This document shows, one piece after another, positions 8,163-51,640 of a DNA stretch of 64,000 nucleotides; the first letter of the stretch is position 1, and every line of letters begins with the position of its first letter. The notes beneath the pieces are model-generated. The model saw only the letters and a program-made list of their open reading frames with translations. It did not search any database and was not told the DNA's origin. Both the position numbers and the translations under genes were made by a program. Where the stretch lies: the NCBI RefSeq assembly GCF_932294415.1, contig NC_065542.1, positions 45,845,942 through 45,909,941 on the forward strand, read 5' to 3'. The DNA comes from Quercus robur (taxonomy: Eukaryota; Streptophyta; Magnoliopsida; Fagales; Fagaceae).

Positions 8163-11100
8163 TTATGATGCTGCTGAGGAGACAAAGTGTTCTCTTAGCC
8201 ACTTGAAATACGTCAACAGCTCATTGCGATCGCGAAGGCTCTCTTTAATGGCTGGAATTTCGTTGAAGTTTTTGATCCATGCCTGTAAGCGAGGGTAGCT
8301 ATCAGCATCCAGCACTTTGACCCCAGCTGCTTCTTGAGTGATTTCCAGAAAGCAAGCTATCCATCCAAAGGCTAAGTCAGCCAGTCCTATGTTATTGCCA
8401 CCAAAAAACTTCTTCTCCCCAAGACCATGCTCTTCTAGGATTCCCAGAAGTTCTTTCATTTCTTTTGTTGCTTTCACTTGTTGTTCTCCGCTAGTTACAA
8501 AGTATCCAGAAAAATTGTTTTTCTAAATCGCACAAAGTATCCAGTTAGAGTGGGTAACATCTCCATCTTATATATTATCCGAGTCTAGAAAAAAAATGTT
8601 TAAAGCTTGTTTGTGTGTGCAGTTCATTATAGTTAAGATTAATAAAATCTACTAGTTAACTCAACTAGAAAGTTTTTTGTCATTCAATAAGGAATTTGAG
8701 TTTGAATCTTATCTATACAAAAAATCAATTGATGTATAACAATTATTATGAAATTGATGCTATAAATTTGAATCTTATTATAAACAAATCTACGAAAGAG
8801 AAAAAGACAATATAATCACCGTTTTTTATTCTCCTCTTATTATTTTTATCTTTACTTCTTTAGTTAAATGACATTTACAATGGAAATACTTTTAAAACTT
8901 TCACATGCGGACCCACCCCGAAGAGATCTTTAAGCAAGCAACTTCTCTGAAAGATGAGTACCAGAGACTTGCTAAATCCCTCCCTCACCAATAAGCGTTG
9001 GACTAAACATACTCTGTTTCATTAGTAATATTAACTCCCACACCCCCACCAGAATTTCTTTTGTACTTCTTTTTTTATATTAATATACTTCTATCTTTTC
9101 AGAAAAAAAAAAAAAAAAAATCCTTTCACATCTATAAAAGAAAAGTAATAACGACAAAGGAGACTAGTAAAAAAATAAAGAGAATGTTAATGAATACCTT
9201 TAGGGCAATTATTAACTAATTATTTTAAGAAAATTTTAATGAAAAAAGAAAAGAAAAATTATTATTTTGACAGTTTTTTTTTTTTCCCCTCAAAAAAGTA
9301 GCGCCAAAACTTTACTAAAAGGACAATTTATTTACAGTACCTTAAATGCTGTTCTTTAGGTTCTCATCTTAAAATTTTACCATGTAGTTATTTATCTAAA
9401 AAATATACTTTCATCACATGAGAAAAAAGAAATTAATATGGCAGAATCTTAAGAGGAAACCTAAGGAATAATATCTAAATACTGTACTTAAGTCTTGCCC
9501 TTCCTAAAATGAATTGTTAACAATTATTTTAGGGATAATTACACTTTACCCACCTATGGTTTGCCTCTAATTCTATGTGCCTACCCGTGGTTCAAATTTT
9601 GACACTTTGCCCACCTGTGATTGTCACCGTTAATGTGCCGTGTACCTACCTCTCCCTCACCGTTACTCTAACATAGAAATATGTAAAAACCCACTACCAT
9701 CCAGATCAAAACACTCTCACTCATCTTAAACGTGAAGAACATGAAGAACATACCCAAATTTTGAAAAATTTTGAAACTTGAGTTGGCTCACTAAACCCAG
9801 AACATGAAGATTAACCGAAAACTAAGATGAAATAGCATTATGCAAAACAAAAGTAAAGGAATCATACAAGAGAGAATAAATTATTCAAATTTCCTCAACC
9901 AAAGATTTCACTCTCATTCTCTTAAATTATTTGGGACCCGAAATATCTGAACTATCAGGAATTTTAATTTTTGGAAGCCCAGAAGAACAAAATTCATAAG
10001 ATTGAACAATTCAATTTCTTTTCTTCTCTTCCATTATTGAGCATCCAAAAAAAAAAAAAAAAAGCGAAAGCTGGAATTCATTTGAGAAAGCTCTAATCAC
10101 TGATAATTACAAAGTCCACGGCAGAACTCATTTTCCCAAGACAACCCTCTCTGCCTCGTCACCTCCGACGTCCTCTCCCATCTAGAAAACGACGAGAACA
10201 ACCCGTTCGAGCCCACCGGGTTCATCACTGCCTTCTCTACCTGGTCCATCGAGCCCAACCCCTTCTTCCTCCGCTCCTCTCTCTCCTTCTCCGGCCACCT
10301 CGCCGAACTCGAGCGAACTCTCGAATCTTCTTCTTCGTCCTCTTCATCGTCGATCGTCGTGGTCGAATCTTCTTCTTCGTCCTCAAAATTTCCAAACTCT
10401 CTCTATCTCTCTCTCTTTCTCTGAAACTCAAATCGAAACCCAAGCTCAGCCACAATGAACCACTACCACATCTACCAAGCCATTGGCAGAGGCAAAAACT
10501 CGGTACCGTTCTTGCTCAAATCGAAGTTTCTATTTTTTAAATTTTCCCAATTACAGTAACTTAACCTAGTTTGATTTATTTATTAATGTGTTTGTTTGTT
10601 TCCAATTTTTGGTTCATTGGATGAGAAATATTAATTTTTGGGTTTAATTTTTTGTTAATCTTCAAGATTTCTGGGTTTAGTTTTTGGGTATGTTCTTCTA
10701 CTTTTCTTCAGACTCATTAAACCCAGAACATGATTGTGGGTTTAGTTTGGGTACAATTAGTTTGAACATGAAAAATAGAAAACCTGGGTTTAGTTTTTGG
10801 TTAATCTTCATGTTTTGGGTTTAGTGAGCCAACTCAAGTTTCAAAATTTGGGTATGTTCTTCATGTTCTTCATGTTTAAGATTTGAGTTAGAGTGTTTTG
10901 ATCTGGATGGGAGTGAGTTTTTACATATTTTTGTGTTAGAGTAACGGGGAGGGAGAGGTGGGTACACGGCACATTAACGGTGACAATCACAGGTGGGCAA
11001 AGTGTCAAAATTTGAACCACAGGTAGGCACATAGAATTAGAGGCAAACCACAAGTGGGCAAAGTGTAATTATCCCATTATTTTAAGAGTACTCGTTAATA

Positions 11101-11507
11101 TGAACCAAAAAATAACAATAAAGGAGAACAAAGTTGTAGGTGTGATTTTATGCAATGTAAGAATAAACATAATAATCAGTTAGTTGATGAATAATTACCT
11201 TATCCTCTCCAAACTTTGCCCAGAACCGAGCCACAGCTCTCTCATGAGGATCATCTGGAAGCAAGGGGTTGTGTGGCCAAGTCTCTTCAATGTACTCAAG
11301 AATGACAATGGATTCTGCGATGGGTTTCCCACCATGAACAAGCACAAGAACCTTCTTATGGACAGGGTTGTACTTCAAAAGCATATCACTCTTGTTGAAT
11401 ATATCCTCTTCAACATATTCATATTTGATACCCTTGAGTTTTAGTGCCCATATAACTCTGTAAACATATGGACTAGTCGAAAATCCTATTAGCTTTACTT
11501 CTTCCAT
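8163..11507 (-). CDS. GSTU: Tau-class glutathione S-transferase (copy A)
   Basis: Two-exon gene: exon 1 11507-11199, exon 2 8522-8163, phase-0 GT/AG intron of 2,676 bp, 222 residues, the usual tau GST length. Tau GSTs are cytosolic dimers that conjugate glutathione to xenobiotics and stress products. Exon 1 encodes the thioredoxin-fold domain (about 1-80) with the expected catalytic Ser12 (STSPYVYRV) and the glutathione-binding pair E65-S66 (KPIAES). Exon 2 completes the helical substrate domain ([20 protein letters not shown]). The odd point is residue 54: the near-invariant cis-proline of KVPVLVH is leucine (KVLVLVH), so activity may be altered. The intron is swollen by a Pack-MULE (9532-11075). 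Closest local relative is copy C. Start is the Met of MEEVKL shared by all paralogues. Family certain; function of this copy less so. Confidence 0.9.
8640..8750 (+). repeat. Decayed tRNA-like SINE in GST A intron
   Basis: The run TAGTTAACTCAACTAG followed by GAGTTTGAATCTTATCTATA resembles a degraded copy of the SINE family seen at 62143-62316 and 40292-40405. A matching remnant sits at the same place in GST C (about 33897-34010), so it predates the block duplication. Confidence 0.35.
9532..11075. mobile_element. Non-autonomous MULE (Pack-MULE-like) in GST A intron
   Basis: Inverted repeats of about 290 bp (9532-9826 and 10784-11075) begin GGGATAATTACACTTT and end AAGTGTAATTATCCC. A perfect 9-bp target duplication, ATTATTTTA, flanks the element (9523-9531 and 11076-11084); long TIRs plus a 9-bp duplication is the Mutator-like signature. 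No transposase is visible. The GC-rich interior (about 10070-10510) is unlike the surroundings and holds gene-derived sequence, including the start of a RUNKEL/ULK4-like kinase. GST C lacks the element at the same intron, so it arrived after the block duplication. Confidence 0.9.
10120..10510 (+). pseudogene. Captured gene fragment: RUNKEL/ULK4-like kinase start
   Basis: An ATG at 10455 opens [16 protein letters not shown], close to the first residues of plant RUNKEL (ULK4-type) kinases as I recall them (MNQYHIYEAIGRGKYS). It stops at a GT that fits the first exon boundary, and intron-like T-rich sequence with CAG follows. Only the glycine-rich loop start is present, so it cannot encode a kinase. 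Upstream, 10137-10320 reads openly as a GC-rich peptide ([20 protein letters not shown] and on) that I cannot assign; it may be a second captured fragment. Both lie between the MULE inverted repeats. Confidence 0.6.
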
Positions 11508-11544
11508 TCTTACTTAGATTTTCTTGCTTCCTGCCCGAGTGAGT

Positions 11545-17915: not shown

Positions 17916-18755
17916 TGTCCCTGATTTTCTCTTAGAAAATACCAGTTTGAACTTCGAAGTATTAAAGGCTACCAGTTCTTTTCACTGGTGTTCTTAATAA
18001 CCACAAACACCATGTAGATCAATTCTAAGTTTCAAACATAGCCCTCAGACCAAAGCAGGTGGACCGGGTTTGAAAGTCACTGGGTCAACAACGAATAGGC
18101 CCACCAAAGTGATTGGACTTTCTCAAGCGAAGCAAAGCCCCCACAACTTTAGCCCGTTGTTAAGATCTCAGGCAAAACCCAAAAATGAAAACCCCAGTAA
18201 AAGCCTGAATAAAATGATGGGAGGATTTTAGCATGATGCCTGAGGGTAAGTAAGACGATATAAAATGTTGAAGACTGTTAAGAGATACTAGCCTCTAAGC
18301 ACGCGCTCATGCGTGTGTTTAGAGGCTCTTCTATTTTTTGGATAAATGTTAATTTATAACATTTATTATATTTTGGGATTACTATATTTTCCAATTACAA
18401 AAAAAAAAAAAAAAAAAAAAAAAAACTAGGGGTGTGTTTTATTTTTCTGCCAACCATCAAATCTGATTAAAACTCCTTTTCCTTCACTTCTCTTTCCCCA
18501 CACCTTTTTCGGTAAGGCGGTAGCCATCCTCTCCTTTTACTCAGTGATCTCACGTTTGTTTTATTTTTATTTATTTATTTTTAATGAAAAAACATGCTTG
18601 ATTTAATTTAATTTTTTTTAATAAAACTTGCTTGATTTTGTTAGGAGAGTTTGCTTCTTTTCTTTAAAGTAACCAACTAACCATACATGATTCCCTTAAA
18701 AAAAAAAAAAAAAAAAAGTAACCGAAGATAAAGAGAAGGAAAGGTATATGTTAAT

Positions 18756-19510
18756 TGTGGGGGCCAAGAGTCTATGGGCCCGGCTTGCTCGCTTATAGGG
18801 AGTCCACAGGCCCCCAAACTAAAGGAGGCCAGGGCCCAAGCCCAAAAACAGTGAGCCCGATGTGGTTCAAGGGCATGTCCGAGGACCGCTCCGTCCTCGG
18901 AAAGCCCAGAACCCCATTAACGAAAATGGGATGCAGGCAGACTTGAAAGATCAGAAAATATCTCACGGAAATAGTCCTTAATACCCTTCATTGACATGAC
19001 ACCGCCCCAAACAGATCCGGATTTTTAGGCTTTATGGACCATCTCCCACAACTCAGGGATTAGACTGATGGGACAGATATCTGCCCCGGAAAGATCGACC
19101 CTACACGTGGACGAAGGACAACGAACGTAGGCGAGTATAAAAGAGAATGTTATGTGACCAAGAAGGAGGTCTCCATCTAGCTTCTGGAAAAAGGCTTGAA
19201 GAAAGAGAATGTCTGGATAATACACGCCGGACACCACGTAAAAACCCTTCGACGGGTAACCGGGGACAGCGCCAACGCTCCTCGGACATGATCCGAGGAG
19301 CCAAATCCTCCTAGATACAAGATTGATGGGCCTGAATATCCAGCCCAAAGCTCTATCTCATATCAGTTCACCTGTAGTCCGACTCGAAATGTCGCCCCGT
19401 GCCCCAACGCTGGCCTTTCAAGCCCACTCTCTACAAATATTATTGTGAGGGACTTTCCGTGTGCGAGCCCAACGTCGATGTCGGGCCGTTAAAGATTTTG
19501 TGTCCTTACA
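18756..19510 (+). repeat. 5' LTR of the young element
   Basis: 755 bp, TGTGGGGGCC at the start and GTGTCCTTACA at the end. A TATA box (TATAAAAG, 19136-19143) lies about half way. Contains TCCTCGGA phrases that recur in the internal arrays. Confidence 0.9.
19136..19143 (+). promoter_or_regulatory. TATA box in the 5' LTR
   Basis: TATAAAAG inside the LTR, with the same copy in the 3' LTR at about 24763-24770. Fits the U3/R promoter of an LTR element. Confidence 0.5.
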
Positions 19511-19530
19511 ATTGGCGCCGTCTGTGGGAA
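19511..19530 (+). other. Primer-binding-site region
   Basis: Immediately downstream of the 5' LTR: ATTGGCGCCGTCTGTGGGAA. The TGGCGCC core is complementary to the 3' end expected for a tRNA primer, as in many plant gypsy-like elements. Which tRNA was not determined. Confidence 0.6.
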
Positions 19531-19764
19531 AGGCTTGCGCGTTGGCACGAGTGGCACATGAGTCAGCCTTCTCGCAAACAGAGTTCCACGAGATTTTCTC
19601 ATCTCCAGCGGCGTGCAGTTGTTGCTCCGCCGTGAGCTTCGTCTAGGGGCTACGCCTTGCACTGACGACGTAGCGGACAGCTCTAGGGGCTTGCGGCCTC
19701 GAGCCAACTCCTCCCTCCCTGGCCTAGGGGCTCACTTTCGAAAAATAAATCAGTGCAGAGAAAA

Positions 19765-21020
19765 GACTACAAAAAGAACTCTTACAAGTAACGGACAGAA
19801 CCAAGGCCTTGCATGGTCCTCGGACCCAAGCCTATGGGGAAACCGAGTACAAAGAGGACATCTTACAAGTAACGGACAGAACCAAGGCCTTGCATGGTCC
19901 TCGGACCCAAGCCTATGGGGAAACCGAGTACAAAGACGAAGACATCTTAAAAGTAATGGACAGAACCAAGGCCTTGCATGGTCCTCGGACCCAAGCCTAT
20001 GAGGAAACCAAGTACAAAGATGAGGACATCTTACAAGTAACGGACAGAACCAAGGCCTTGCATGGTCCTCGGACCCAAGCCTATGGGGAAACCGAGTACA
20101 AAGAGGACATCTTAAAAGTAATGGACAGAACCAAGGCCTTGCATGGTCCTCGGACCCAAGCCTATGGGGAAACCAAGTACAAAAAGAACTCTTACAAGTA
20201 ACGGACAGAACCAAGGCCTTGCGTGGTCCTCGGACCCAAGCCTATGGGGAAACCAAGTACAAAAAGAACTCTTACAAGTAACGGACAGAACCAAGGCCTT
20301 GCATGGTCCTCGGACCCAAGCCTATGGGGAAACCGAGTACAAAGAGGACATCTTACAAGTAACGGACAGAACCAAGGCCTTGCATGGTCCTCGGACCCAA
20401 GCCTATGGGGAAACCGAGTACAAAGACGAAGACATCTTAAAAGTAATGGACAGAACCAAGGCCTTGCATGGTCCTCGGACCCAAGCCTATGGGGAAACCA
20501 AGTACAAAGATGAGGACATCTTACAAGTAACGGACAGAACCAAGGCCTTGCATGGTCCTCGGACCCAAGCCTATGGGGAAACCGAGTACAAAGAGGACAT
20601 CTTACAAGTAACGGACAGAACCAAGGCCTTGCATGGTCCTCGGACCCAAGCCTATGGGAAAACCGAGTACAAAGACGAAGACATCTTAAAAGTAATGGAC
20701 AGAACCAAGGCCTTGCATGGTCCTCGGACCCAAGCCTATGGGGAAACCGAGTACAAAGACGAAGACATCTTAAAAGTAATGGACAGAACCAAGGCCTTGC
20801 ATGGTCCTCGGACCCAAGCCTATGGGGAAACCAAGTACAAAGATGAAGACATCTTAAAAGTAATGGACAGAACCAAGGCCTTGCATGGTCCTCGGACCCA
20901 AGCCTATGGGGAAACCAAGTATAAAGATGAAGACATCTTAAAAGTAATGGACAGAACCAAGGCCTTGCATGGTCCTCGGACCCAAGCCTATGGGGAAACC
21001 AAGTACAAAGATGAAGACAT
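19765..21020 (+). repeat. Minisatellite of 80/81/84-bp units, 15 copies
   Basis: The phrase GGCCTTGCATGGTCCTCGG recurs at 19805, 19886, 19970, 20054, 20135, 20215, 20295, 20376, 20460, 20544, 20625, 20709, 20793, 20877 and 20961. Spacing is 80, 81 or 84 bp; the 84-bp units carry an extra triplet in the GAYGARGACATC part. Units are nearly identical, and unit types alternate, which points to recent expansion and shuffling. Long open frames on both strands follow from the repeat length being mostly a multiple of three. Confidence 0.95.
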
Positions 21021-22208
21021 CACCGGAACCCCCTATATCCCAGTCGATGGCTCAGATGGATTGCTTAGAAGTCATCAGCCTTGGACGATATTCACTCGCT
21101 TATCACAGAATATCCAACTGATATCTCGGTTAGTTTTCTTAAGTTTCATTTATTATGAATCATCAATGTAATGCCTGGTATGATCGATAAATTGGAGTTA
21201 GTTGAATTATGCTTCAAGTCATACGGCCCTAAGTACTCTTGAAGAAACGTACACAGAGGGCACACCCATTCAAGAAACAGTGTGGTCAAAGAAACAGTGC
21301 TCAAAACAAGTAAAGAAATTTCCATTCTTATCATGAAGAAGAGATAGTATAGTGTACAAGGAAAAGCTGAAATCAGCCTACGTCGAAGCCTACTACATAA
21401 GCAAGAAAAAGAAAAATACAAGAAAGCTGTAGAAAGCCGAGGAGGTATGTCGGAGGAGAGGTTGGCTACAGCTCCGAGACCTTATTCTTTCCCCGCATCT
21501 TTGCCTGCCCATAATTCAGGCAGCCAAAGAGACCCAACTTGAACCTGACACCGTTGAAGAAAAGGTGTAGGGAGTTGGAGGTGGTGGGGCTTTCTCTAAA
21601 TATACGCCCACCGCAAAGCAGAGGCGCTGATGGAGGAAAACCCTTCTTCTGCCGCACCAAAACTCTGGCATGGACAGAACCTGCTTCGGATTTTGACTAA
21701 AAGAGGGGAAGATTTCTTTCCCTCTCGGTGGAGATGGAGTGCTCTCCTGAACTTGTGCTTCCTGTGCCCATACCTTGCTGTTATAAGCCTCATGAAGACA
21801 CGGCGCTTCCGCGGCGGAGGAAGTTCTTTATTCCCAACCCTCGCCTTCAACATGTTGTGCCAAGAAAGGAGGACTCCGGATATGGGAGGCGTGATGTAAG
21901 AGAAAGCTAAAAGAAGGGGTGTATATATAAAGCAACCTTTTTCTCCCTCCTATTTATTTGAAAAGACAAGACGATGTCAGTCAACTCACGCGGCGTCCCA
22001 AGGAGCACTACAGACAAAGTGGTCTTGGCTCAACTTCCAACGTCAACTGCAACTAAGAGACTCGAGGGGCCTCGTAAAGGCGCGCCTCGATCCTTGGGAC
22101 GTCAGTGAAATACCGCATGGCCAGAGGCTGCAGAAATATCTCTCAATCTGCGGGTCCATTGGATTCGCGGCCCAGGCCCGCTTTGCGTGGAGGCCCAGGG
22201 ACACCCTG
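21021..22208. other. Interior of the LTR element, no gene recognised
   Basis: Mixed-composition sequence without retroelement protein similarity. Part of it (about 21600-21900) resembles 23740-23990 (shared CTGCTTCGGATTTT then GACTAAAAGA/GGCTAAAAGA), so the interior has an old diverged duplication. A TATATATAAAG motif lies near 21923. Confidence 0.45.
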
Positions 22209-22690
22209 TTCGGCACCTAAGGCTTGCATGGTCCTCGGACTCAAGTTAAAAGGGAAAACCAAGTACTGATGCAGACATTGGTCTTGGACAGAACCTAAGG
22301 CTTGCATGGTCCTCGGACTCAAGCTAAAAGGGAAAACCAAGTACTGATGCAGACATTGGTCTTGGACAGAACCTAAGGCTTGCATGGTCCTCGGACTCAA
22401 GCTAAAAGGGAAAACCAAGTACTGGTGCAGACATTGGTCTTGGACAGAACCTAAGGCTTGCATGGTCCTCGGACTCAAGCTAAAAGGGAAAACCAAGTAC
22501 TAATGCAGACGATGGTCTTGGACAGAACCTAAGGCTTGCATGGTCCTCGGACTCAAGCTAAAAGGGAAAACCAAGTACTAATGCAGACGATGGTCTGGGA
22601 CAGAACCTAAGGCTTGCATGGTCCTCGGACCCAAGCTAAAAGGGAAAACCTAGTACCGGTAAAGACCCAAGTCTCGGACTCAAGCCTAAG
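22209..22690 (+). repeat. Second minisatellite of 78-bp units, 6 copies
   Basis: GGCTTGCATGGTCCTCGGAC recurs at 22221, 22299, 22377, 22455, 22533 and 22611, exactly 78 bp apart, followed by degenerate copies to about 22780. The core is shared with the 80/81/84-bp array, so both arrays descend from one unit, but the spacer differs (AAAGGGAAAACCAAGTACT then GATGCAGAC). Confidence 0.95.
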
Positions 22691-22836
22691 AGAAAAGTCA
22701 AGTGCATAAGATAAAACGCATAAGTCCTAAACAAAGCTCAGGTTTTGCAAAGTCCTCGGACTCAGGCTTCTTGGGAAATCAATTGCCTTAATGAAGAAAT
22801 TTTTCGGCTTAAATAATGGAAAGGGTTAGGGCTTGT

Positions 22837-23184
22837 GCGTCATGGAGATGGCAGAGCAACCTAATGATCGTCAACCTAAGGAGGCCATTCATCCGATGGG
22901 TAACATGTCCTCGGAAAAATACTTCTCACACCTTATCGAGCATTCAACACCCATCACTGCTAACTTTAAGATAAGTCTCATTCTTCGCTGGTCGGATTGT
23001 TATGTTGAGTGCGTCATGGAGATGGCAGAGCAACCTAATGATCGTCAACCTAAGGAGGCCATTCATCCGATGGGTAACATGTCCTCGGAAAAATACTTCT
23101 CACACCTTATCGAGCATTCAACACCCATCACTGCTAACTTTAAGATAAGTCTCATTCTTCGCTGGTCGGATTGTTATGTTGAAT
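22837..23184 (+). repeat. Tandem duplication of 174 bp
   Basis: GCGTCATGGAGATGGCAGAG starts at 22837 and again at 23011. The two 174-bp copies look identical by eye, so the duplication is very recent. The length is 58 codons, so an open frame spans both copies; I see no known protein in it. Confidence 0.9.
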
Positions 23185-24382
23185 AGTAATCTCTTTAAAG
23201 TTATCGTGGCATTTTTTTTTTTATCAAGGATTACTTTAGCCTTAGTTATTATTGATTGAAATGCTATATTATTATGCCGAGCAGCGCTTTCACACTTGTT
23301 AAAATATATAAACAAGACATAAGAAATAAAGTAACACTGACTTTTATTAATATGAAAATTTGTTACAACGTACAAAGAAGGGCTTAAACAAGCCTATACA
23401 AAAAATGAACTGTTAAAACAGTAACAATATCCGTAATACAAATAAGTAAACCATCAGGTGCCTTCTGTGTTCGCCTTCAAAGTCTTTCTGAAATCTATGC
23501 CTCGGTACTGCTCATATCAGGAGAAGATCCTTATACAAAAATAATGAAGGAGAAGGAAGACGCATTGGAAGACATGGAAGCACTTCAGCAAGCTCTTGTT
23601 ACTGAAGAATGCAAGGGAAAAAGAAGATGGAGGACATGAGTGGGAAGGAGGAGAAGAAGAGTGAAGCAATGAAAAGAAAGTAAAAGGAGCAAAAGAGGGA
23701 GAAGGGGAGCCTTATTAGGTATGCTCGTGAGAGAGCAGATGGAGATGACAAGGGAAGTTTTCGACTCAGTCACACCAGAAGTGGGGTGTGACGAATCCCT
23801 GCTTCGGATTTTGGCTAAAAGAATGGGGAGGCAAATCTTAAGCCTCCGCCATCCTTGCCCAGACCGAGCCATCTCGAGTTTTGTTGGGACATGGCGTTTC
23901 TGGGAAAGGAGGGATTTGTTCATGGTGGATTACTGTGAAATAAGTATTATAGAAGTGGGCGTAACCGGAAGGAGGAAATGGACTCTGGGAAGAACATGAG
24001 GGATTCTGATATGAAAAGGTCACCCCCTGTCTTCTCTCTTTATATAGGGGACGAAGAAGAGGGTATGTGACACATTCGGACCCTCAGGGAAATCCAGAGT
24101 ATGACGCGTCGTTTCGCTCTCCCACACCATCAGTAACCGTTACATCTGGAAGGTCTCGTAAATGGTAAGGGATTAAAGGCACGTTGCGGATAACCACGCG
24201 GCATAACGGCAACGTACGTAAATCCAGGAAAAACGGCTCGTAGACCGGCGCAGCCCTCGTGGAGGTGAAGAGTCACCAACGTGGATCAAGGGCCGAATTA
24301 AATGAGCCGCAATTAAAGCTCGCAATTACCGAAACCCACCTCTCCAACCAGGACGTTGGACAGCAGGGTTTCGAGGGGCTAT

Positions 24383-25137
24383 TGTGGGGGCCAAGAGTCT
24401 ATGGGCCCGGCTTGCTCGCTTATAGGGAGTCCACAAGCCCCCAAACTAAAGGAGGCCAGGGCCCAAGCCCAAAAACAGTGAGCCCGATGTGGTTCAAGGG
24501 CACGTCCGAGGACCGCTCCGTCCTCGGAAAGCCCAGAACCCCATTAACGAAAATGGGATGCAGGCAGACTTGAAAGATCAGAAAATATCTCACGGAAATA
24601 GTCCTTAATACCCTTCATTGACATGACACCGCCCCAAACAGATCCGGATTTTTAGGCTTTATGGACCATCTCCCACAACTCAGGGATTAGACTGATGGGA
24701 CAGATATCTGCCCCGGAAAGATCGACCCTACACGTGGACGAAGGACAACGAACGTAGGCGAGTATAAAAGAGAATGTTATGTGACCAAGAAGGAGGTCTC
24801 CATCTAGCTTCTGGAAAAAGGCTTGAAGAAAGAGAATGTCTGGATAATACACGCCGGACACCACGTAAAAACCCTTCGACGGGTAACCGGGGACAGCGCC
24901 AACGCTCCTCGGACATGATCCGAGGAGCCAAATCCTCCTAGATACAAGATTGATGGGCCTGAATATCCAGCCCAAAGCTCTATCTCATATCAGTTCACCT
25001 GTAGTCCGACTCGAAATGTCGCCCCGTGCCCCAACGCTGGCCTTTCAAGCCCACTCTCTACAAATATTATTGTGAGGGACTTTCTGTGTGCGAGCCCAAC
25101 GTCGATGTCGGGCCGTTAAAGATTTTGTGTCCTTACA
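24383..25137 (+). repeat. 3' LTR of the young element
   Basis: 755 bp, same length as the 5' LTR, with three transitions between them by eye. Preceded by a purine-rich CGAGGGGCT tract and followed by the target duplication TTAAT. Confidence 0.9.
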
Positions 25138-25458
25138 TTAATAATTTGCTAAATTTAAGGAGATGGATGGGAAGTTATAGTAATATAGTTTTTTAATAGG
25201 AGTGTTTTTTTTTTCCCTTTAAATTAAAAATAAATAAGAAGATATTTGAAAAAAAAAAAAAAAAAAACACAAAACACAAAACAAACTTAGTGAAATGATG
25301 GAGTAAGGAAAACAAATTCAATTAAAAAAAATTGAAAATGTTTAACGAAGAGATTGGTAATATTTAACACAAAAAAAAGTGGTAACTGGAGATAAAGAGG
25401 AGAGGTATATGTTAATAATTTGCTAAATTTAAAGAGATGGATGGGAGGTTATAGTAAT

Positions 25459-27203: not shown

Positions 27204-29204
27204 GGTTCAAGTTACACCTAGTGTAACTCTAAAGAGTTACACCTTTTCTAAACCATTAGATTTAAGTAGATCCAATGGTCAAAAAAGACACTCATTAATA
27301 CTAATATTCTTATTAGTATCTCATTAATTATCCCTTATTTATTGCATTCCATACCTATCTCTAAACCCAAAAAAATGGTCTACGTTTTACTCTCTCTCTC
27401 CTCCATAGTTCACGTTTTTCTCTACTCTCTCTTTCTCCTCCATCGATTTTCCCCAAATCAATTCCATTGCCTTTCTCTTAATTCCAATCTCACCAGCATG
27501 CTCCTTGCCTCATCAACATAAACAAATAAAAAATAAAACCTTATTATTAAATGTATTTTATGGTCCATCTAATAAAAAATTAAACCTTATTATTAAATGT
27601 ATTATTCCCCAAAAGGTTTTTGTTCTTATATTTGTTTGTTCAGAATTCAGACTTCAGCAACCCAAAAAATAAAATAAAAAAGGTTGGGAAAGTGTGACAT
27701 ATCTAGTATAACAACTCAAATAACGACTTAATTTAGCGTTACACTGAAAAGGACTTGGTGGATCTGTCACCTAACAAGCAAAAACTACTAGTCTAGGCTC
27801 TGGATATTCTTTTCAATTTTGCTTAATTACAAAAGGAAACATAGCAAAAGCACATGCAGGAGAAAAATTTTATGGACCAATATGTTAGTCAATTTAGTTA
27901 GTAACTTGGTATTGCGGTATTCGCATTAGTACTAATCATCTTCAAAATTTTGTAGTGGACGAGTTTACATTCCAATAATCATATATGTAGCACTAGTTCA
28001 GTCGCGTATGGGCCTTATAGGCTACAAAATATGTGAAATTATCAGTTCCTTTTGAATAAACCTAAGGCCCAAGGAAAGTGTGGTGATCAGAAATTCCAAT
28101 TGTGCGTCCAGCGGCTGTGGCTTTTTTTTTTCTTTCTGCCGGCAACTTGGCCATGGAGGTGGAAGAGTAGTGGAGGAGAAAGAAAAAGAGAGGAACGTAT
28201 AGTGGAGGAGAAAGAGAGAGAGACGTATACCTTTTTTTTAGGTTTAGAGATAGGTATGGAATGTAATAAATAAAGGATAATTAATGAGATCCTAATTTAA
28301 ATATTACCATTAATGAGTGTCTTTTTTGACCGTTGGATCTACTTAAATCCAATGGTTTAGAAAAGGTGTAACTTTTTAGAGTTACACTAGGTATAACTTT
28401 TTAGAGTTACATCAGGTGTAACTTGAACCCATCTCATAAATATATATATGGAGTTGTAAACCCTAAGTCACTAACCTAGTACCCATCCACCTCTCCCTAA
28501 CCCTCAATCTCTCTGTCACTCACGTAGCCACGCACAAGAGCACGCAGCCATGCATAAGAGCACGCAGCCACGCCTTGGCCTCACTCTGAGTCACTCCTCG
28601 GCCTCACTCTGACTGTCACTCACACTCAATCTCACAGCTCACACAGCTCACACAGTCACTCACTCACTCTCAAGCACTTTCCTCTTGAATTGGTTTTGGG
28701 TCGCGATCTGCTTGTTACCTAAGCACTCTTCCCTCTATCTCTAGATCTAAAACCCAAGGCCGAAGACCTCAAGCTCTTTCTCTCTGATCTCCAACTCAGG
28801 GCCAAGACTTTCTTCTCTCTCCATTTCTACTTTTATCTTCTTCTTTATATTTATTTTTTGTTTGATTCGAAATCTCCTCCATTGGTTTGGTTATTTCTAG
28901 GTTTGAGGATTGAAAAATGGGATTTTTATTTTTTTATTTTTTTATTTGGGTGTGGCTGTGGAGATTTGAAAAGAAGGGACTTTTGGGATTGGTTGTTTGG
29001 CTGTAGGTCTGATGTTGAGTTTGGGGCTTGTTTTAAAAAAGCTTCCTTTCTGGTTGGGCTTAACGGGGCCCCGCGGGGGCGGGTCTAGGCCTCGGAAAAA
29101 AATCCGTTTAGTAAACGGGCCGGGTTCGAGCCGCAGGTCTTAGCCTGCTGGTTGGGTCCGGGTATGCAAAAACCTGGCTCGAACCCGACCCGTTGCCATT
29201 CCTA
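26984..29204. mobile_element. hAT-type element with 8-bp target duplication
   Basis: The left end TAGGGATGGCAA and right end TTGCCATTCCTA are inverted repeats with one mismatch, flanked by a perfect 8-bp duplication GAGTTAAT (26976-26983 and 29205-29212). Sub-terminal regions are rich in GACCCG and GGGTTCGAGCC phrases. No transposase seen. Much of the interior is a second inverted-repeat element (about 27204-28430), so the hAT itself is about 1 kb. 28450-29060 is CACTCAC/CTCTC-rich and reads like a captured untranslated leader, but I could not assign it. Confidence 0.85.
27204..28430. mobile_element. Long-TIR element (MULE-like) nested in the hAT
   Basis: GGTTCAAGTTACACCTAGTG at the left and its inverse at the right (CAGGTGTAACTTGAACCC) open inverted repeats that continue for about 250 bp, including ATTAATTATCCCTTATTTAT and CATACCTATCTCTAAACC. 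The right arm has an extra copy of the AGAGTTACA motif. No clear target duplication, as the left flank is a TA microsatellite. Non-coding; open frames in it derive from the inverted arms. Confidence 0.65.
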
Positions 29205-33429: not shown

Positions 33430-34662
33430 TTATGATGCTGCTGAGGACATCAAGTGTTCTCTTCGCCATTTGAAATATGTCAACAGCTCATTGCGATCGC
33501 GAAGGCTTTCTTTAATGGCTGGAATTTCATTGAAGTTTTTGATCCATGCCTGTAAGCGAGGGAAGCTATCAGCTTCCATTACTTTGACCCCAGCTGCTTC
33601 TTGAAGGATTTCCAGCAAGCACGCTATCCATCCAAAGGCTAAGTCAGCCAGTCCTATGTCACTGCCACCAAAAAACTTCTTCTCTCCAAGACCATGCTCT
33701 TCTAGGATTCCCAGAAGTTCTTTCACTTCTTCTGTTGCTTTCACTTGTTCTTGTCCACCAGTTATAAAGAAGCCAAACAATTTGTTGCTCTAAATCACTC
33801 AAAAATTATCCAATTAGAGCGGGTAACATCTCCATATTATTATCTAAGTCTAGAAAAAATGTTCAAAGTTTGTTTTTGTTCAGTTTATAATAGTTAGATT
33901 AATCAAATTTATGTGAGTTCTGGTTAATTCAATAGTAAAATATTTTTTCTTTTAATAAGAAATTTAGGTTTGAATCCTGTCTATATGTGCTAAAAATCAA
34001 TGTCTAAAAATTATTATAGAATTGATACTAAAAATTTAAATCCTATCATATCATGTCTATATAAACAAATAAAAAATCAAATATACCAAAAAGAAAAAGA
34101 AAAGACAATCACCCTTTTTTATTCTCCTCTTATTTTTTTTCATCTTTAGTTAATTGACATTTACAAATCAAGCAAATACTTTTAAACTTTTACATGTATA
34201 AATGTAAGTTAAAAAAAAAAAAAAAAACTAACAATTAAGAAGAACAAAGTTGTTGGTGAAATTATATCAAAAAATAAAAAATAAAAAGGTTGTTGTTTTG
34301 ATTTTATGCAATGCAAGATTAAACATAATAATGAATTAGTGATGCATAATTACCTTATCCTCTCCAAACTTTGCCCAAAACCGAGCTACAGCTCTCTCGT
34401 GAGGATCATCTGGAAGCAAGGGGTTCTGTGGCCAAGTCTCATCAATGTACTCGAGGATGACAATGGATTCTGCGATGGGTTTCCCACCATGAACAAGCAC
34501 AGGAACCTTCTTATGGACAGGGTTGTACTTCAAAAGCATATCACTCTTGTTGAATATATCATCTTCTACATGTTCATATTTGATACCCTTGAGTTTCAGT
34601 GCCCATATAACTCGATGAACATATGGACTTGGCCAGAATCCTAGTAGCTTTACTTCTTCCAT
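33430..34662 (-). CDS. GSTU: Tau-class glutathione S-transferase (copy C)
   Basis: Two exons: 34662-34354 and 33789-33430, with a 564-bp phase-0 GT/AG intron; 222 residues. The thioredoxin-like domain has catalytic Ser12 in WPSPYVHRV, Lys39, the cis-proline P54 (KVPVLVHGG) and glutathione-binding E65-S66 (KPIAES). Exon 2 completes the all-helical domain with [10 protein letters not shown] and [10 protein letters not shown]. All key residues seen in tau GSTs are present, so this copy is probably active in glutathione conjugation in the cytosol. It is the close paralogue of copy A and differs little across exon 2. A putative TATA box lies about 40 bp upstream. Confidence 0.95.
33897..34010 (+). 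repeat. Decayed SINE in GST C intron
   Basis: GTGAGTTCTGGTTAATTCAATAG then GGTTTGAATCCTGTCTATA parallels the remnant in the GST A intron. A B-box-like GGTTTGAATCC survives. Inserted before block duplication. Confidence 0.4.
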
Positions 34663-34701
34663 AGATAGATTTTCTTAATTTTCTTCCTACGTTGGTGAGT
34701 T

Positions 34702-34709
34702 CATATATA
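34702..34709 (-). promoter_or_regulatory. Putative TATA box of GST C
   Basis: TATATATG on the minus strand about 40 bp upstream of the start codon, in the same TATATGAACT context as A and D. Confidence 0.45.
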
Positions 34710-36570
34710 CCTAGGGCAGTGTTCATAAAAAATATATATATACACACCTAGGAGAGTCAAATTGATTCCCTTGCTTCAGCTACAAGCATATACAATTTGG
34801 ACAATTAGAAGACATTTTACTTATATTTTTTTATTGGCTATTAATTATTGACTAAGGCCAGGTTCAATGTAATTCAATCTTTATTCTGCAAAAATTAATT
34901 AGCTTTAACTAGATAAATTATGTGGGGGGAAGGGAGGCTTTATCTACTTGAATTGTATAGTAAAGGGAAGTTGATAATGTGGACCATGTGGCTCAAGCCT
35001 TAGGTCAATGGGTAATTATTGGCTTTTAAAAAATAAAAATAAAAATCATTTTATTTTTATTTTATTAACATTATGGGCTCTTTTTCCATGTGAGATTGTC
35101 AGACCCCTTTGTTAAGATTTTATTTTATTTTATTTATTATTATTATTTTTTTAAAGAAATTATTTTCTTTCTATCGCCCCAAAGTGGGACTAGGAGGTGG
35201 AGAGAGCATATAAGTGAATTAAATTAACTTTGATCAGTGATCAAAGAGGCTTAACTCGGTGGTGTAACATGTTCTCTTTTATTAGGAAAACTGGGTTCAA
35301 ACTTCAAATCCTCTTTTAACTTTTTTTTCCTGCTAATTCAGTGCATAAACTTGATACTATAGTCATTCTCAAAATAAAAAAATAAAAAAATTGATACTAT
35401 AGCCAAATAAAGAAAAAAAAAATCTTTTGTTAAAAATTCGTCAATTTGCTAAAGGAAAATTGGCCGAAAAAAAGACTTGACGCAATCCTACTGCACAGCA
35501 TAAAATTTCAAGAGGTAGTCTTTGTACATTAATTATGCATAGTCACGTCACATTTCCATTTACAATTTGACGGAATTTTAAAAGAAGGGGTCTATTTTTA
35601 CTACAATATCTTTATGTACTAATTATTGGTGATAAAAAAAAAAAAAAAAAGTATATGGGCTCTTTCTATGACAACATAAAAAGTTTCATTCTAAAAAAAA
35701 AAAAAAAAAACATAAAAATTCAGAGTCCAAAGTATATTTTACACTTTTTTATTTAATTTTTATACAGGATAAAAATTCTACTTTAACTTAATCTAAACGT
35801 ATATATGTGTAAAATTTCTTTCTAAAGACTTGAATTTCGATCCTTATCCCTATCTCACAAGAATATTATACTTGTAAAATAATCATCACGTCAATAATGT
35901 ATGATTATAGTAGTCCCTAATTTTTAATATATAATGCTCATTTGTGTCTGGAGAAGCAAGACGTGGAGAGAGAGGATTAATAAGGTGAGTGGGGGTAGAT
36001 GAGATTAGGAGGGTTTCGAATTTTGAATTAAGATAATGGGGGCAGGTGGGAAAGCGTGAGAGGGGGGTTGATTTATTTTTTTGGACCTTGGCGTTTGCAA
36101 ATGTCCTTTATTTAACTTTTTTTTACCCTTTTTTTATTTTTATTTTTGGCTGGGGTTTATAATGACGTTTTTAAAAAAATTTTGGTTTTTTTTTTTTTTT
36201 TACGGAATATTCTGAAATATGTCACTGAATATTCTAGAAATATGGCACTATTATTTTTTCTTTTTCTTTTTTTCCTAACCGTATGTTTTAGGAATTAGAT
36301 TACTTTTTTTAAAAAAAATTCTTTAAGAACCTGTAGTGGCGTTTGTAAAACGCCACTATAGACCCTTTTAGGACAGATGGCCTATCTTATGATATAAGTA
36401 AGAAATCAATTTTTCATAACTGATTATGATTTGTCTCTCCTTGTTCATCTACCAAGCATGCATGAATTATAATATACGCTGCTGGCCTGCTAAAACCACT
36501 GTATTTATATTACTCTTTTAACTTTCAAATTAGTTATGAATATGCTGAAGTTGGAAACTAAGCAAGAGTA
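34710..36570. other. Spacer between GST C and D
   Basis: No gene. Holds a decayed SINE (35755-35903), A tracts and a short inverted phrase around TAGTGGCGTTTGTAAAACGCCACTA at about 36335-36358. Part of this spacer (from 34983) is the material missing from block 1. Confidence 0.6.
35755..35903 (-). repeat. Old SINE copy
   Basis: Read on the minus strand, it matches the second SINE family (62430-62584 and 39133-39304) in order: a GTGATGATTATTTTAC-type start, a degraded B box (GATCGAAATTCAAG), then the CATATATACG...TTAGATTAAG tail. More diverged than the other copies. Confidence 0.55.
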
Positions 36571-36578
36571 TACGAGGC

Positions 36579-37189
36579 CAGGGCCGGCTCAATGAATTTG
36601 GGGACCCTAGGTGAAATCTTTAAATGGAGCATTTTATTATATTTAATTATAAATTCATATATTTTTTTAATTAAAATTTATTTTTCTTACTTTTTGAAAG
36701 GCAAAATTACTAATTAAATTTTTGCATTCAAGTTCCGCTAACATTTCCTTTTCAATTGGTAATATGGCTAATCCACTTAATCTTTCTTGTGACATAGTTG
36801 ATCTTAAATAGGATTTTATTAATTTTAATTTTGAAAAACTTATTTATGCGGAAGTAATTGTAACAGGTATAGTTAGTAATATTCTGAAAGCAATACATGC
36901 ATTTGGAAAATATTCTAGCCTCTTTATATAATTTAGTACATTAATTGGAGAGTTTTCATTTATTTGCAAAACTTCTTTTAAAACTTTTAGTTCTGAAAAT
37001 AAATCTAAACCATCAATATCAGAATAAGTTTCATGTGTGAGAAAATATTCAGGATTAAGACAATTTTTTTCCAAACTATACAATTTTTTGATGGGACATT
37101 ATATAATATATTCTTACTATTTGGGGGCCTCTTTATCAGTGGGGGCCTTAGGCCACTGCCTAAGTGGCCTATAGCTCCAACCGGCTCTG
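36579..37189 (-). mobile_element. Small hAT element with transposase remnant
   Basis: Perfect 8-bp duplication TACGAGGC (36571-36578 and 37190-37197) and inverted ends CAGGGCCGGC / CCGGCTCTG. The minus strand retains a piece of an hAT transposase C-terminal dimerisation region at 37083-36844: DLFSELKVLKEVLQINENSP, NVLNYIKRLEYFPNACIAF and LLTIPVT. These phrases are typical of the ZMYM1/TTF-type hAT proteins of plants. The rest of the transposase is gone, so the element is internally deleted and non-autonomous. Confidence 0.85.
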
Positions 37190-37415
37190 TACGAGGCAAG
37201 GTTTACACTTCAAAGTCCCAAGAATCCAAGAGATAATACAAAAAATATCCAAGCAATGAGGAGTCCGAAATTGATTTATTCCCACATAGACATCACTTCT
37301 TGTTTGTTATGCATGTTGAACTAAGATTCATGTAGTAATTTTCCAACAATGAGACATAAAGAACAAGTTGTGCATGCCACATTTATGATCCTTATTTATA
37401 TTTATGAATCTATAT

Positions 37416-38456
37416 TTATGTTGTTGCTGATGCAATAAACTTTTCCCTTAGGCTTTTGAAATATGTCAACATTTCATCGCGGTCAGGAAGGTTCTCTTTG
37501 ATCATGGAGTCTTCCTTGAAGCTTTTAGTCCAAGCTTCTAAGCGTGGGAAGCTATTAGCTTCCATCAGTTTTACACCAACTACTTCTTCCATGACTTCAA
37601 GCCAGGCAGACAACCATCCAAAGGCCAAGTCTGCCAATCCAATCTTATTGCCTCCAAAAAATTTCTTCTCCCCAAGGCCATGATCTTCTATTATTTTCAA
37701 CAGTTGTTTGGCTTCTTTTGTTGCCTTCTCTTGTTCTTCCCCTACACCACGAAAGAAAGCAAAAAAGGCTGGGCTCTATGGAACCCAAATATGTGGTTAT
37801 CTTAATCAACTGTTCTAGTCTTGAGGTCGGAAGAATTCATATGGGTTCTCAAATTTTCTTAAAAAAAATTTTGAAAATAAACTTTTTAAAATAAAATAAA
37901 AAATTTGTATTTAAAAAAGAGAGGTTTAATAAAGCTTTACACCAAATGGCCAAGAAAACATTGGTTTATAATCATAAACAGTGAACTTCGTAATAAGCAT
38001 TTGAAAATTTCTTGAGAAATTTGAAATAAAGGGGAAGAAAATTGCGTAAATTTGAGAATTTCATTCTTCAATTGGAAATTGGTAAGCATATAGATAAAGA
38101 TATTATAATGGAAACTATTTTTTCCTTGGAAAAAAGAAATGCGTTACCTTGTCATCTTCAAACTTTATCCAAAATCGAGCCAAGGCCTTCTCAAAAGGGT
38201 CATTCGGTAGCAAGGGATTTTGTGGCCAAATCTCCTCAATGTACTCAAGAATAACACTTGTCTCAGCAACTGGTTTTCCGCGATGGATGAGCACCGGAAC
38301 CTTCTTGTGAACTGGGTTGTACCGTAAAAGAAGATCACTCTTGTTGGAAAGATCCTCCTCTACATATTCATATTTCACACCCTTGAATTTCAATGCCCAT
38401 ATGACTCTATAGCAGTAACTACTAGGCCAAGCTCCCAGTAGCTTCACTTCTTCCAT
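37416..38456 (-). CDS. GSTU: Tau-class glutathione S-transferase (copy D)
   Basis: Two exons: 38456-38148 and 37775-37416, 372-bp phase-0 GT/AG intron, 222 residues. The N-terminal thioredoxin-like domain has Ser12 ([10 protein letters not shown]), cis-proline P54 (KVPVLIHRG) and E65. The next residue is Thr66 (KPVAET) where A, C and E have Ser; threonine keeps the hydroxyl but is unusual in this glutathione-binding pair, and pseudogene B shares it, so it is ancestral to the B/D lineage. Exon 2 has [10 protein letters not shown] and [10 protein letters not shown]. Probably an active cytosolic enzyme. It is the intact paralogue of pseudogene B and defines what B has lost. Confidence 0.95.
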
Positions 38457-38501
38457 TTTGTTAAGTTATATATGCTCTTCTTTCTAACCAGCTAATAAGT
38501 T

Positions 38502-38510
38502 CATATACTT
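38502..38510 (-). promoter_or_regulatory. Putative TATA box of GST D
   Basis: AAGTATATG on the minus strand, at the place equivalent to the TATA boxes of A and C. A second candidate (ATATATAAC, 38465-38474) lies too close to the ATG. Confidence 0.35.
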
Positions 38511-38736
38511 GACCAAAATGGATTGGTCTTCTTGGTCTTTTTAAATTTTAGGCTTTAAATTCAAAAGATTAGGATAAAATTTGTTTTTATTAAAGTAGTT
38601 GCCATGTTTGACTCCACTTAGATAGGTTTAAATATGGTGTAAACAGATATATTTGATCATGTATGTTAATCAAATACAAAAAAATATATCCTCCCCCCTT
38701 TCCTTCATTGACTTGATACATTAAATGGCTGCTTGT

Positions 38737-38993
38737 AGGTGTTTGGATCCACGTTTTGAGCTGCTTTCACGTTTGCGTTTTCCCTTTATTTATTTATTTA
38801 CGCGCAACAGCTTTTAGGAGACAGTGCATTATTCATGCAATGTTTGTGCATTGTTCATTACTATTTGTGCACTGTTTATCAGGAAAAAAAAAATATTAAA
38901 AATGGGTCCCACAGTACTATTTACACATTTAAAAATTATTTTGCTACAATGTTTTCAGTTTCGGTAAAAATAAATTGTATCCAAACGGACCCT
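38737..38993. mobile_element. MITE of the GTTTGGAT/ATCCAAAC family (copy 1)
   Basis: Ends GGTGTTTGGATCC and GTATCCAAACGGACC are inverted. Block 1 shows the empty site (GGCTGCTTAGTGT near 16768), giving a target duplication of only 2-3 bp (TA or TTA). That suits a PIF/Harbinger or Mariner-type MITE. The interior has the phrase ATTTTGCTACAATGTTTTCAG, shared in inverted orientation with the copies near 41088 and 57983. Confidence 0.75.
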
Positions 38994-39132
38994 TAGTGTT
39001 TATTATTACAACTTTTAGCTTTTTGTTTGTTTGTTTCAACTTTTTTCAAAGATCTAACTTTAGTTTTTAAAAAATAAGCTAATTTTTAATTTTTTGTTCC
39101 ACATTTTATAGATAAATTATTAAATAAATTGT

Positions 39133-39304
39133 ATTTTTTTTTATACAAGATAGAAAATTTACTTTAGTCTAATCTAAGTACATATGTGTGTGAAGCTCCC
39201 TCTTGGAGATTGGAGACTTGAACCGTAACTCTTGTTCAGCCCCCCCACACTTCACAAATACTTATAATTGTGAAGTAACCATCACGCCAAGAATGTGCCG
39301 TGGT
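39133..39304 (-). repeat. tRNA-derived SINE with paralogous empty site
   Basis: On the minus strand: a TTGGCGTGATGGTTAC A-box-like start, a B box (GGTTCAAGTCTCC) and a tail ending in an A run. The flanks AATAAATTGT (39123-39132) and AATAAACTGT (39305-39314) form a target duplication. Block 1 near 16863-16885 has the uninterrupted site (AATAAATTGTACCTAAACGC). Insertion therefore followed the block duplication. Confidence 0.8.
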
Positions 39305-39314
39305 AATAAACTGT

Positions 39315-41085: not shown

Positions 41086-41087
41086 TA

Positions 41088-41335
41088 GGGTCTGTTTGGA
41101 TTAAGCTTATTTTTGCTGAAACTGAAAATACTGTAACAAAATAATTTTTAAATGTGTGAATAGTGTTGTGGGACTCATTTTTAATAAAAAAGTTGTTGAA
41201 AAGTGGAATTGTGGATCCGTGAACAGTGCATGAATGTACTATTCACCGTGGAAAAGTCAACCTTAATGCGTGAAAAAAAAAAAAAAAAAAAAAAAAAACG
41301 CAAACGCCAAATTAAGTGCAATCCAAACAGGTACT
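41088..41335. mobile_element. MITE copy 2, next to the GST E stop codon
   Basis: Ends GGGTCTGTTTGGATT and AATCCAAACAGGTAC are inverted; the inside has CTGTAACAAAATAATTTTTAAAT and an A tract near the right end. The right end lies about 8-10 bp from the GST E stop codon (41345-41343), so the E transcript must end inside or beyond it. Confidence 0.75.
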
Positions 41336-41342
41336 TATAGTT

Positions 41343-42566: not shown

Positions 42567-42599
42567 TTTCGTTTATTTTTTTAACCCTGTCAAATTCGT

Positions 42600-51439: not shown

Positions 51440-51640
51440 GTGTGATTTCCTTGCCTGTTTTGTTCGTGTTTTCCTTCAGCTTTCTATATCATTGTAGAAG
51501 AGTTGCCCAAGGGCCATGGTTTATAAAAGCTCCATTCACTCATTTCCTTGCTTATCCAAGAGTTTGTACTAAACATAAAGTAGTGCTAAATGAGAGGTCT
51601 GCCTTATTCAGGAAATATGAGTCTAACACCATCTTACTTC
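51440..51640 (+). repeat. Decayed duplicate of the RLP 5' coding region
   Basis: ATGAGAGGTCTGCCTT at 51590 repeats at 51740 inside the gene. In another frame the upstream copy reads NERSALFRKYES, like the gene's own DERSALLQFKES. This suggests a short 5' tandem duplication whose upstream copy has decayed into leader sequence. Confidence 0.5.

Follow-up and report, generated by a model that had tools for sequence, protein, structure and literature searches.

Retrotransposons of the Tat lineage (Ogre/Retand) carry, in their 3' regions, hypervariable tandem repeats that vary among copies and give rise to satellites, as described in the accessible portions of PMC7004042 and PMC11963269, and their pol contains an additional archaeal-type RNase H (accessible portion of PMC6317226). 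In PMC11963269, as far as the available text goes, none of 63 clusters is devoid of all domains and 10 are missing some, the repeats are called family-specific, and the origin and any function of Retand-type tandem repeats are described as unknown. Satellites made of long terminal repeat (LTR) or untranslated-region parts of centromeric elements have also been described (PMC3648361, available part), and large retrotransposon derivatives (LARDs) are protein-less and are said, in the part of PMC7215508 at hand, to specify conserved RNA secondary structure. Here, we analysed a protein-less LTR element at positions 18756-25137 of a 64-kb stretch of Quercus robur DNA (contig NC_065542.1, 64,000 nucleotides; hereafter, the window), the interior of which contains two arrays of a short tandem repeat. 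A block of the repeat unit is conserved among highly diverged elements and is predicted to form an RNA hairpin.

A predicted hairpin block conserved among diverged elements

The two arrays are versions of one repeat and belong to the design of the element. There are 22 copies of the core TTGCATGGTCCTCGGAC with three or fewer mismatches (0.03 expected by chance) and 32 copies of TCCTCGGA (0.6 expected), in both cases exclusively within the element. A first-pass annotation, made from the sequence alone, had related the arrays to each other through this core. The core is indeed present in both, but arrays 1 and 2 are alike across the whole unit, and the 17-bp core was rejected as a conserved entity, because many stretches of the unit equal it (17 of 65 and 9 of 62, the core itself counted). 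The conserved part is a block of ~63 columns, which folds as a single RNA hairpin; in 25 representative units, its columns average 90.5% identity, and those of the linker 49.7%.

The same block was found in elements that share little else with the window copy. An exact 29-base pattern joining the LTR end to the primer-binding site (PBS) is present at 271 places in the genome (reversed control, 0); the pattern, which extends four bases beyond the PBS, may favour members of this lineage. Seventeen of these places, five chosen by hand and 12 taken at roughly even steps from the places listed on contigs C1 to C4, were sampled, and an array, mostly of 74-81-bp units, lies downstream at every one. 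The first core follows the PBS by ~0.23-0.3 kb where measurable, except at locus L073 (~0.5 kb). At L073 (G000:C1:4514150-4515650), a second LTR-end/PBS-like stretch lies ~240 bases on, between the PBS and the array. When five diverged loci were compared with the window copy, identity was 54.0-56.3% in the 3' part of the LTR (shuffled, 50.0-51.0%), 43.3-75.5% in the leader and 84.2-93.0% in the unit block.

An alignment of 13 distinct units, of which each array of the window contributed one and other loci the remaining 11, was folded using RNAalifold, which returned one stem-loop of 22 pairs spanning the conserved block. Two-sided compensatory changes are present at five of the 22 pairs, and one pair is C-G in six units and U-A in six. 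Overall, 95.5% of the cells are paired (shuffled, 92.8) with a covariation score of 0.160 (shuffled, 0.106); none of 500 shuffles reached either value or the observed value for cells with two-sided change, and the counts of pairs changed on both sides and of additional pair types were matched by 3 and 13 of the 500, respectively. Sliding the partners by 1-3 columns left pairing at no more than 54.5% and the covariation score at no more than 0.074. A covariance model of the 13 units detected 22 units across the window, exclusively on the plus strand, together with one chance-level match (E 0.05), and for 97 distinct units fitted to this model, four of the five measures beat at least 497 of 500 shuffles.

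Variation within arrays was also examined at the stem pair formed by the bases immediately 5' of GGACAGAA and immediately 3' of AAACC. Among 123 hairpins from the eight copies of subfamily S1 (see below), this pair is T-A in 60, C-G in 55, T-G in 4 and C-A in 4, and none of 2,000 within-copy shuffles paired as well, although the within-array pair count is inflated by linkage, because units multiply as hairpin modules. When the two bases were instead paired across neighbouring hairpins in all copies, 40 C-A and 49 T-G combinations were obtained among 203. G-U cells outnumber A-C cells (18:3 and 141:48), favouring sense RNA. The compensatory changes thus back the array unit as a predicted conserved RNA stem-loop. 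Rfam yielded no family at gathering scores, the core had no match in viral contigs, and a 24-base form of the core had none in bacterial or archaeal genomes.

Copies, subfamilies and an 84-bp satellite block

The assembly (785.7 Mb, 42 contigs) was searched with the LTR, with 40 of 2,780 candidates scored and all counts being lower bounds. At least 41 LTR matches were identified, which comprise 17 LTR pairs (the window copy included), six single LTRs and a fragment. The 16 pairs besides that of the window copy (L031-L046) were compared, together with the surroundings of four of the six single LTRs. Of these four, L047 and L049 proved to be solo LTRs flanked by a target-site duplication (TSD), and L050 is the 3' portion of another copy with the same make-up as the complete copies. 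At L048 (G000:C35:4057798-4058608), an LTR with 99% identity to the LTR of the window copy is followed, ~10 bases on, by a second copy of its last 46 bases.

The order of parts is identical in all 17 complete copies, the interiors of which range from 3,285 to 5,499 bp. Their LTR pairs differ by Kimura two-parameter (K2P) distances of 0.0013-0.0147, and 16 of them have a perfect 5-bp TSD. According to the first-pass annotation, copies with ordinary gag-pol interiors and no array would speak against the arrays as part of the element; none was seen among the 17, and segment and array accounting left no unexplained interior stretch large enough for gag-pol in the other 16. Array 1 has 15 units in the window copy and 14, 23, 28, 14, 9, 13, 10, 6, 3, 11, 20, 8, 0, 14, 19 and 18 in L031 to L046, respectively, and array 2 has 3 to 9 cores per copy, decayed cores counted. 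In L043, which has no array-1 unit, the adjoining ends of the leader and block R1 are also missing and array 2 is kept. The 174-bp duplication is unique to the window copy, and its unit is single in the 16 others. The per-copy comparison of copy number, array length and LTR divergence that had been proposed was made for 17 pairs, but the autonomous partner sought with it was not found. A 19-base pattern joining the polypurine tract (PPT) to the LTR start has 210 places; when its listed places were matched by eye with the listed LTR-end/PBS places to find long autonomous elements, two same-strand pairs within 15 kb were obtained, both of which are already-known copies.

The copies are divided into subfamilies S1 (the window copy and L031-L037) and S2 (L038-L041 and L043-L046), with L042 intermediate. 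A third type, S3, was obtained from the array search and is represented by L072 (LTR identity, 88%; part order alike as far as fetched). Between S1 copies, R1 and R2 each remain mostly ~99% identical, with lower values in L037 (95% and 98%). L031 belongs to S1 in its LTR, R1 and R2, but its leader is S2-like at 11 of 13 diagnostic sites and shows 97.0% identity to the S3 copy L072, versus 83.0-84.1% to the other S1 copies. By these comparisons, L031 is a recombinant with a switch between the leader and array 1, and a single template switch on the leader/array-1 side during minus-strand synthesis would yield such a copy. R1 is mosaic in L037, L042 and L044.

A search with array 1 (40 of 1,641 candidates scored) revealed at least 210 matches, many of which are located on contig C35 between 20.55 and 20.93 Mb. 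The segment C35:20,550,000-20,558,000 consists of the repeat throughout, with 95 cores at a constant spacing of 84 bp, and it contains neither an LTR nor R1 or R2. Nine of nine 701-bp samples taken from 20.60 to 20.96 Mb contain the repeat in the same orientation, and it is absent at 20.54 Mb, at 21.00 Mb and in nine further samples from outside. If continuous between the sample points, the block would span ~0.41-0.46 Mb and contain near 5,000 units. Each of the 159 satellite units sampled is 84 bp long; they are 97.2% alike and represent 36 types. The commonest (55 of 159) is exactly identical to the last array-1 unit of L072, and the second commonest (43 of 159) is present in no fetched element. 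The first-pass suggestion that the element could seed satellite DNA is supported by this LTR-free block of the 84-bp unit. Arrays without LTRs, which had been named as a point against the arrays belonging to the element, do exist on C35, but their commonest unit is an element unit. The block probably grew also by larger segments. At L051, in the satellite block, a run of several unit variants is present twice. Approximately 0.55 Mb from the block, at L053 (G000:C35:20000000-20000700), there is a 345-bp tandem repeat, which is possibly a centromeric satellite.

Anatomy, class and surroundings of the element

The first-pass annotation proved accurate for the 755-bp LTRs with three transitions, the TTAAT duplication, the PBS and the PPT (which is short), for the perfect 174-bp duplication, and for the 15 and 6 array units, to which a decayed unit is now added (Table 1). 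It had also described the interior as mostly minisatellite, which is incorrect, because the two arrays together occupy 1,684 bases (35%) of the 4,872-bp interior. The LTR differences lie at LTR offsets 53, 120 and 702, and all three transitions are at cytosines in a CG or CHG context. The short phrases noted in the LTRs are present, but they are the arms of two perfect hairpins, one on either side of the TATA box. The 9-bp hairpin has a folding z of -5.8 (61-nt stretch) and the 10-bp hairpin one of -4.0 (51-nt stretch); of five diverged partial LTRs, one (L076) contains a 9-bp analogue of the latter, which is absent in the other four.

Table 1. Parts of the element, in coordinates of the window
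Feature	Position	Strand	Remark
Whole element	18756..25137	+	Very young non-autonomous LTR retroelement copy
TSD, TTAAT	Left copy 18751..18755; right copy 25138-25142	.	Flanks of element
5' LTR, 755 bp	18756..19510	+	TATA box ~19136
Perfect 9-bp hairpin TCCGAGGAC/GTCCTCGGA	18878..18901	+	5' of TATA box; repeated in 3' LTR
Perfect 10-bp hairpin GCTCCTCGGA/TCCGAGGAGC	19277..19301	+	3' of TATA box; repeated in 3' LTR
Leader, 5' LTR to array 1	19511..19779	+	
PBS TGGCGCCGTCTGTGGGAA	19513..19530	+	Begins two bases past 5' LTR
Array 1, 15 units, 80/81/84-bp spacing	19780..21021	+	Each unit a predicted RNA stem-loop
Block R1	21022..22214	+	No recognised domain; direct repeat of R2, diverged
Array 2, six 78-bp units	22215..22656	+	Predicted stem-loop as in array 1
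Decayed additional array-2 unit	22721..22800	+	45 bits to hairpin model
Perfect tandem duplication, 174-bp unit	22835..23182	+	100% identity
Block R2	23183..24382	+	Terminates in short PPT
Short PPT GTTTCGAGGGGCTAT	24368-24382	+	End of R2
3' LTR, 755 bp	24383..25137	+	

R1 and R2 are colinear over ~1.1 kb, with an alignment score of 925 against a dinucleotide-shuffle maximum of 806 (100 shuffles) and a score of 659 on the opposite strand, and their likeness in four copies corresponds to z values of 6.5 to 8.0 (200 simple shuffles). Because R1 and R2 are homologous, as are both arrays, the simplest history would be the duplication of an array-plus-block module (array 1 with R1, array 2 with R2), the arrays diverging afterwards. 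LTR-like sequence was sought in six interior segments (array 1 excluded) and rejected, no score exceeding the shuffle maximum except that of the reverse leader against the LTR (251 versus 241).

In agreement with the earlier claim that gag-pol is missing, Pfam scans of nine open reading frames (ORFs) of the element gave weak or repeat-driven matches only and no credible coding domain; one repetitive array ORF scored above the DUF4548 cut-off (29.2 versus 27 bits), with no single stretch being significant. Five antisense ORFs, three of which were also in the nine-ORF set, had nothing above the cut-off. TRP28 (PF04195), the antisense-ORF domain of Retand, was not detected at E ≤10 in these five antisense ORFs of the R1/R2 region, in a search in which the HMMER filters discard most weak matches. 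The element has the TG..CA LTR ends, PBS, PPT (short) and 5-bp TSD of an LTR retrotransposon. It resembles LARDs in its long non-coding internal domain, established using Pfam for the window copy, and in a predicted conserved RNA structure in the core, which concerns the array unit only. LARDs have LTRs several kb long, and the LTRs of this element are 755 bp. The short LTRs and almost absent interior of terminal-repeat retrotransposons in miniature (TRIMs) are not found here either, given the 755-bp LTRs and the 4,872-bp interior. Arrays of variable unit number are present, but no pol marks a region between pol and the 3' LTR, and array 1 is on the 5' side; we take the PBS TGGCGCCGTCTGTGGG to be Tat-like. 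A long uniform array outside elements, with its unit shared with element copies, as in retroelement-derived satellites, is also present. We classify the element as a LARD-like member of a multi-copy non-autonomous LTR family.

Elsewhere in the window, two minus-strand ORFs at 46498-47707 match SH3_retrovirus, the integrase core and gag_pre-integrs (the last just below the cut-off) and represent a broken Ty1/copia-type element, which may include the neighbouring ORFs to 49245. Minus-strand ORFs at 8163-11513 and 33430-42572 presumably resemble exons of clustered glutathione S-transferase genes, and a 984-amino-acid open frame at 51590-54544 resembles what we take to be a leucine-rich-repeat receptor-like protein. 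A tandem repeat at 28364-28424 has a 25-bp unit that is nearly palindromic.

Explanations and comparison with known systems

Packaging and dimerisation signals of retroelements are commonly situated just 3' of the PBS. We propose that the hairpin arrays are cis-acting RNA signals, most likely for packaging or dimerisation with the Gag of a helper, an account to which, taken as a whole, we assign about an even chance. In the genomic RNA, array 1 would set a train of hairpins ~0.25 kb 3' of the PBS, and array 2 would be a second, diverged train derived from the duplicated array-plus-block module. Acting in cis, such a train could present many copies of a packaging or dimerisation signal to the Gag of the autonomous helper that recognises it, and more hairpins would allow the protein-less element to be better taken into helper particles. 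The unit number might shift rapidly through slippage or template switching inside the arrays, although when and how the arrays change is our conjecture, and one 84-bp repeat type would have escaped to form the ~0.4 Mb of satellite DNA on C35. The conservation of the block fits dependence on a helper, because the main selectable assets of a protein-less element are its cis signals.

Several observations weigh against this account. L043 is young (LTR K2P 0.0053) yet has no array-1 unit and only array 2, so that array 1 is either not strictly required or was lost after insertion. Across the 97 units, the count of pairs changed on both sides does not reach significance (52 of 500 shuffles), and the folds of single units are modestly low (z, -0.6 to -2.7; equalled by 1 to 57 of 200 shuffles). 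One pair contributes approximately half of the G-U cells, and without it, the G-U to A-C ratios become 9:3 and 76:48. In addition, the structure was tested on its source alignment, and the shuffles take no account of the kinship among the units. Array exchange between families could likewise keep the block alike. Finally, no helper, RNA or particle was seen.

The strongest rival, which we nevertheless regard as rather unlikely, is that the arrays are neutral hypervariable repeats of the Tat/Retand type, generated by abnormal strand transfer in replication and kept alike by exchange between co-packaged elements. Arrays of this kind are frequent in Tat elements and differ from copy to copy (accessible portions of PMC7004042 and PMC11963269), and the mosaic copies described above represent exchange between subfamilies. 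However, the block is conserved and the linkers in the same units are not, a pattern not expected from the exchange of whole units, and two alternative Watson-Crick states are maintained within arrays. Moreover, the repeats in the available part of PMC11963269 are called family-specific, but in the present case the block is shared by families whose LTRs can barely be aligned.

It is less probable still that the repeat acts as DNA or in transcription, either through protein-binding sites on the GGTCCTCGGACC dyad or as a small-RNA source. The core does hold a perfect dyad (GGTCC-TC-GGACC), and both LTRs have the same octamer as hairpin arms. However, the core is no more conserved within the family than many other unit stretches, the compensatory changes run along a long stem beyond the dyad, and G-U outnumbers A-C as sense RNA predicts, though weakly.

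We consider it very improbable that the satellite came first and that the elements took their array from a pre-existing 84-bp satellite. The size and purity of the C35 block, the presence of 84-bp units in some element copies and not in others, and the second commonest satellite unit that is in no fetched element would be consistent with this order of events. However, an array is present at all 17 sampled PBS sites, both of the diverged arrays of the element are built from the repeat, with unit lengths of 75-84, and the nearly uniform satellite has as its commonest unit one identical to an array-1 unit of L072. It is likelier that the satellite descends from the element than the reverse, because the element unit lengths vary widely and the block has only one. 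Array 1 is largely open in one frame (342 amino acids), but that the arrays encode a repetitive peptide can practically be dismissed, since both strands are open, unit lengths of 76, 79 and 80 break the frame, and the spread of unit lengths (75-84) and of variable columns over codon phases (6/3/6 in the 25 representative units), in which third codon positions are not favoured, makes a reading frame unlikely.

Returning to the hairpins as packaging or dimerisation signals, we put forward, as a tentative and more far-reaching proposition, that a protein-less superfamily multiplied such a hairpin beside its PBS, that hairpin number sets success in helper particles, and that the signal was released as the ~0.4-Mb satellite. 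If true, hypervariable minisatellites of LTR elements would be functional, copy-number-tuned RNA signals, with the birth of a satellite as a side effect. A covarying hairpin shared by families with hardly alignable LTRs would give Retand-type repeats a testable function. It would also link two questions, that of the competition of protein-less elements for a helper and that of the birth of new satellite DNA, in one genome that contains the same unit as an element hairpin train and as a satellite block. BARE-2, like other elements that parasitise an autonomous one, is protein-deficient and is presumed to use the particles of its helper; the present element is likewise protein-deficient and presumably dependent on helper particles, and we know of no multiplied hairpin train in parasites of this type.

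LARDs such as Sukkula (Kalendar 2004, via the accessible portion of PMC7215508) share with the element the LTRs, a conserved non-coding core and the absence of protein. They differ in that repeated hairpin trains are not mentioned in that portion of PMC7215508 and in that the LTRs here are 755 bp. Coffea_sat11 (Cintra 2022, via the available text of PMC13013560) resembles the present repeat in having an 82-bp unit, in being carried in Tat elements and in its presence in pericentromeres, but it is reportedly a repeat of the 3' end of Tat elements, and its position in the element is different. The Retand-type elements described in the accessible portion of PMC11963269 resemble the present one in short arrays, a similar unit length, copy-variable unit numbers, satellites born from some of the arrays and non-autonomous members. 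Unlike them, the element analysed here has no gag-pol that we could find, array 1 begins ~0.25 kb past the PBS, the unit block, which is predicted to form a covarying RNA hairpin, has been conserved between families whose LTRs scarcely align, and no TRP28 antisense ORF is present among the five antisense ORFs scanned. Tandem conserved hairpins beside a PBS have no report in the literature that we searched, which excludes most subscription journals. Tandem repeats of Tat/Retand elements and the satellites born from them are thus known, and what is new at this locus is the conserved hairpin train, as predicted from the aligned units, beside the PBS.

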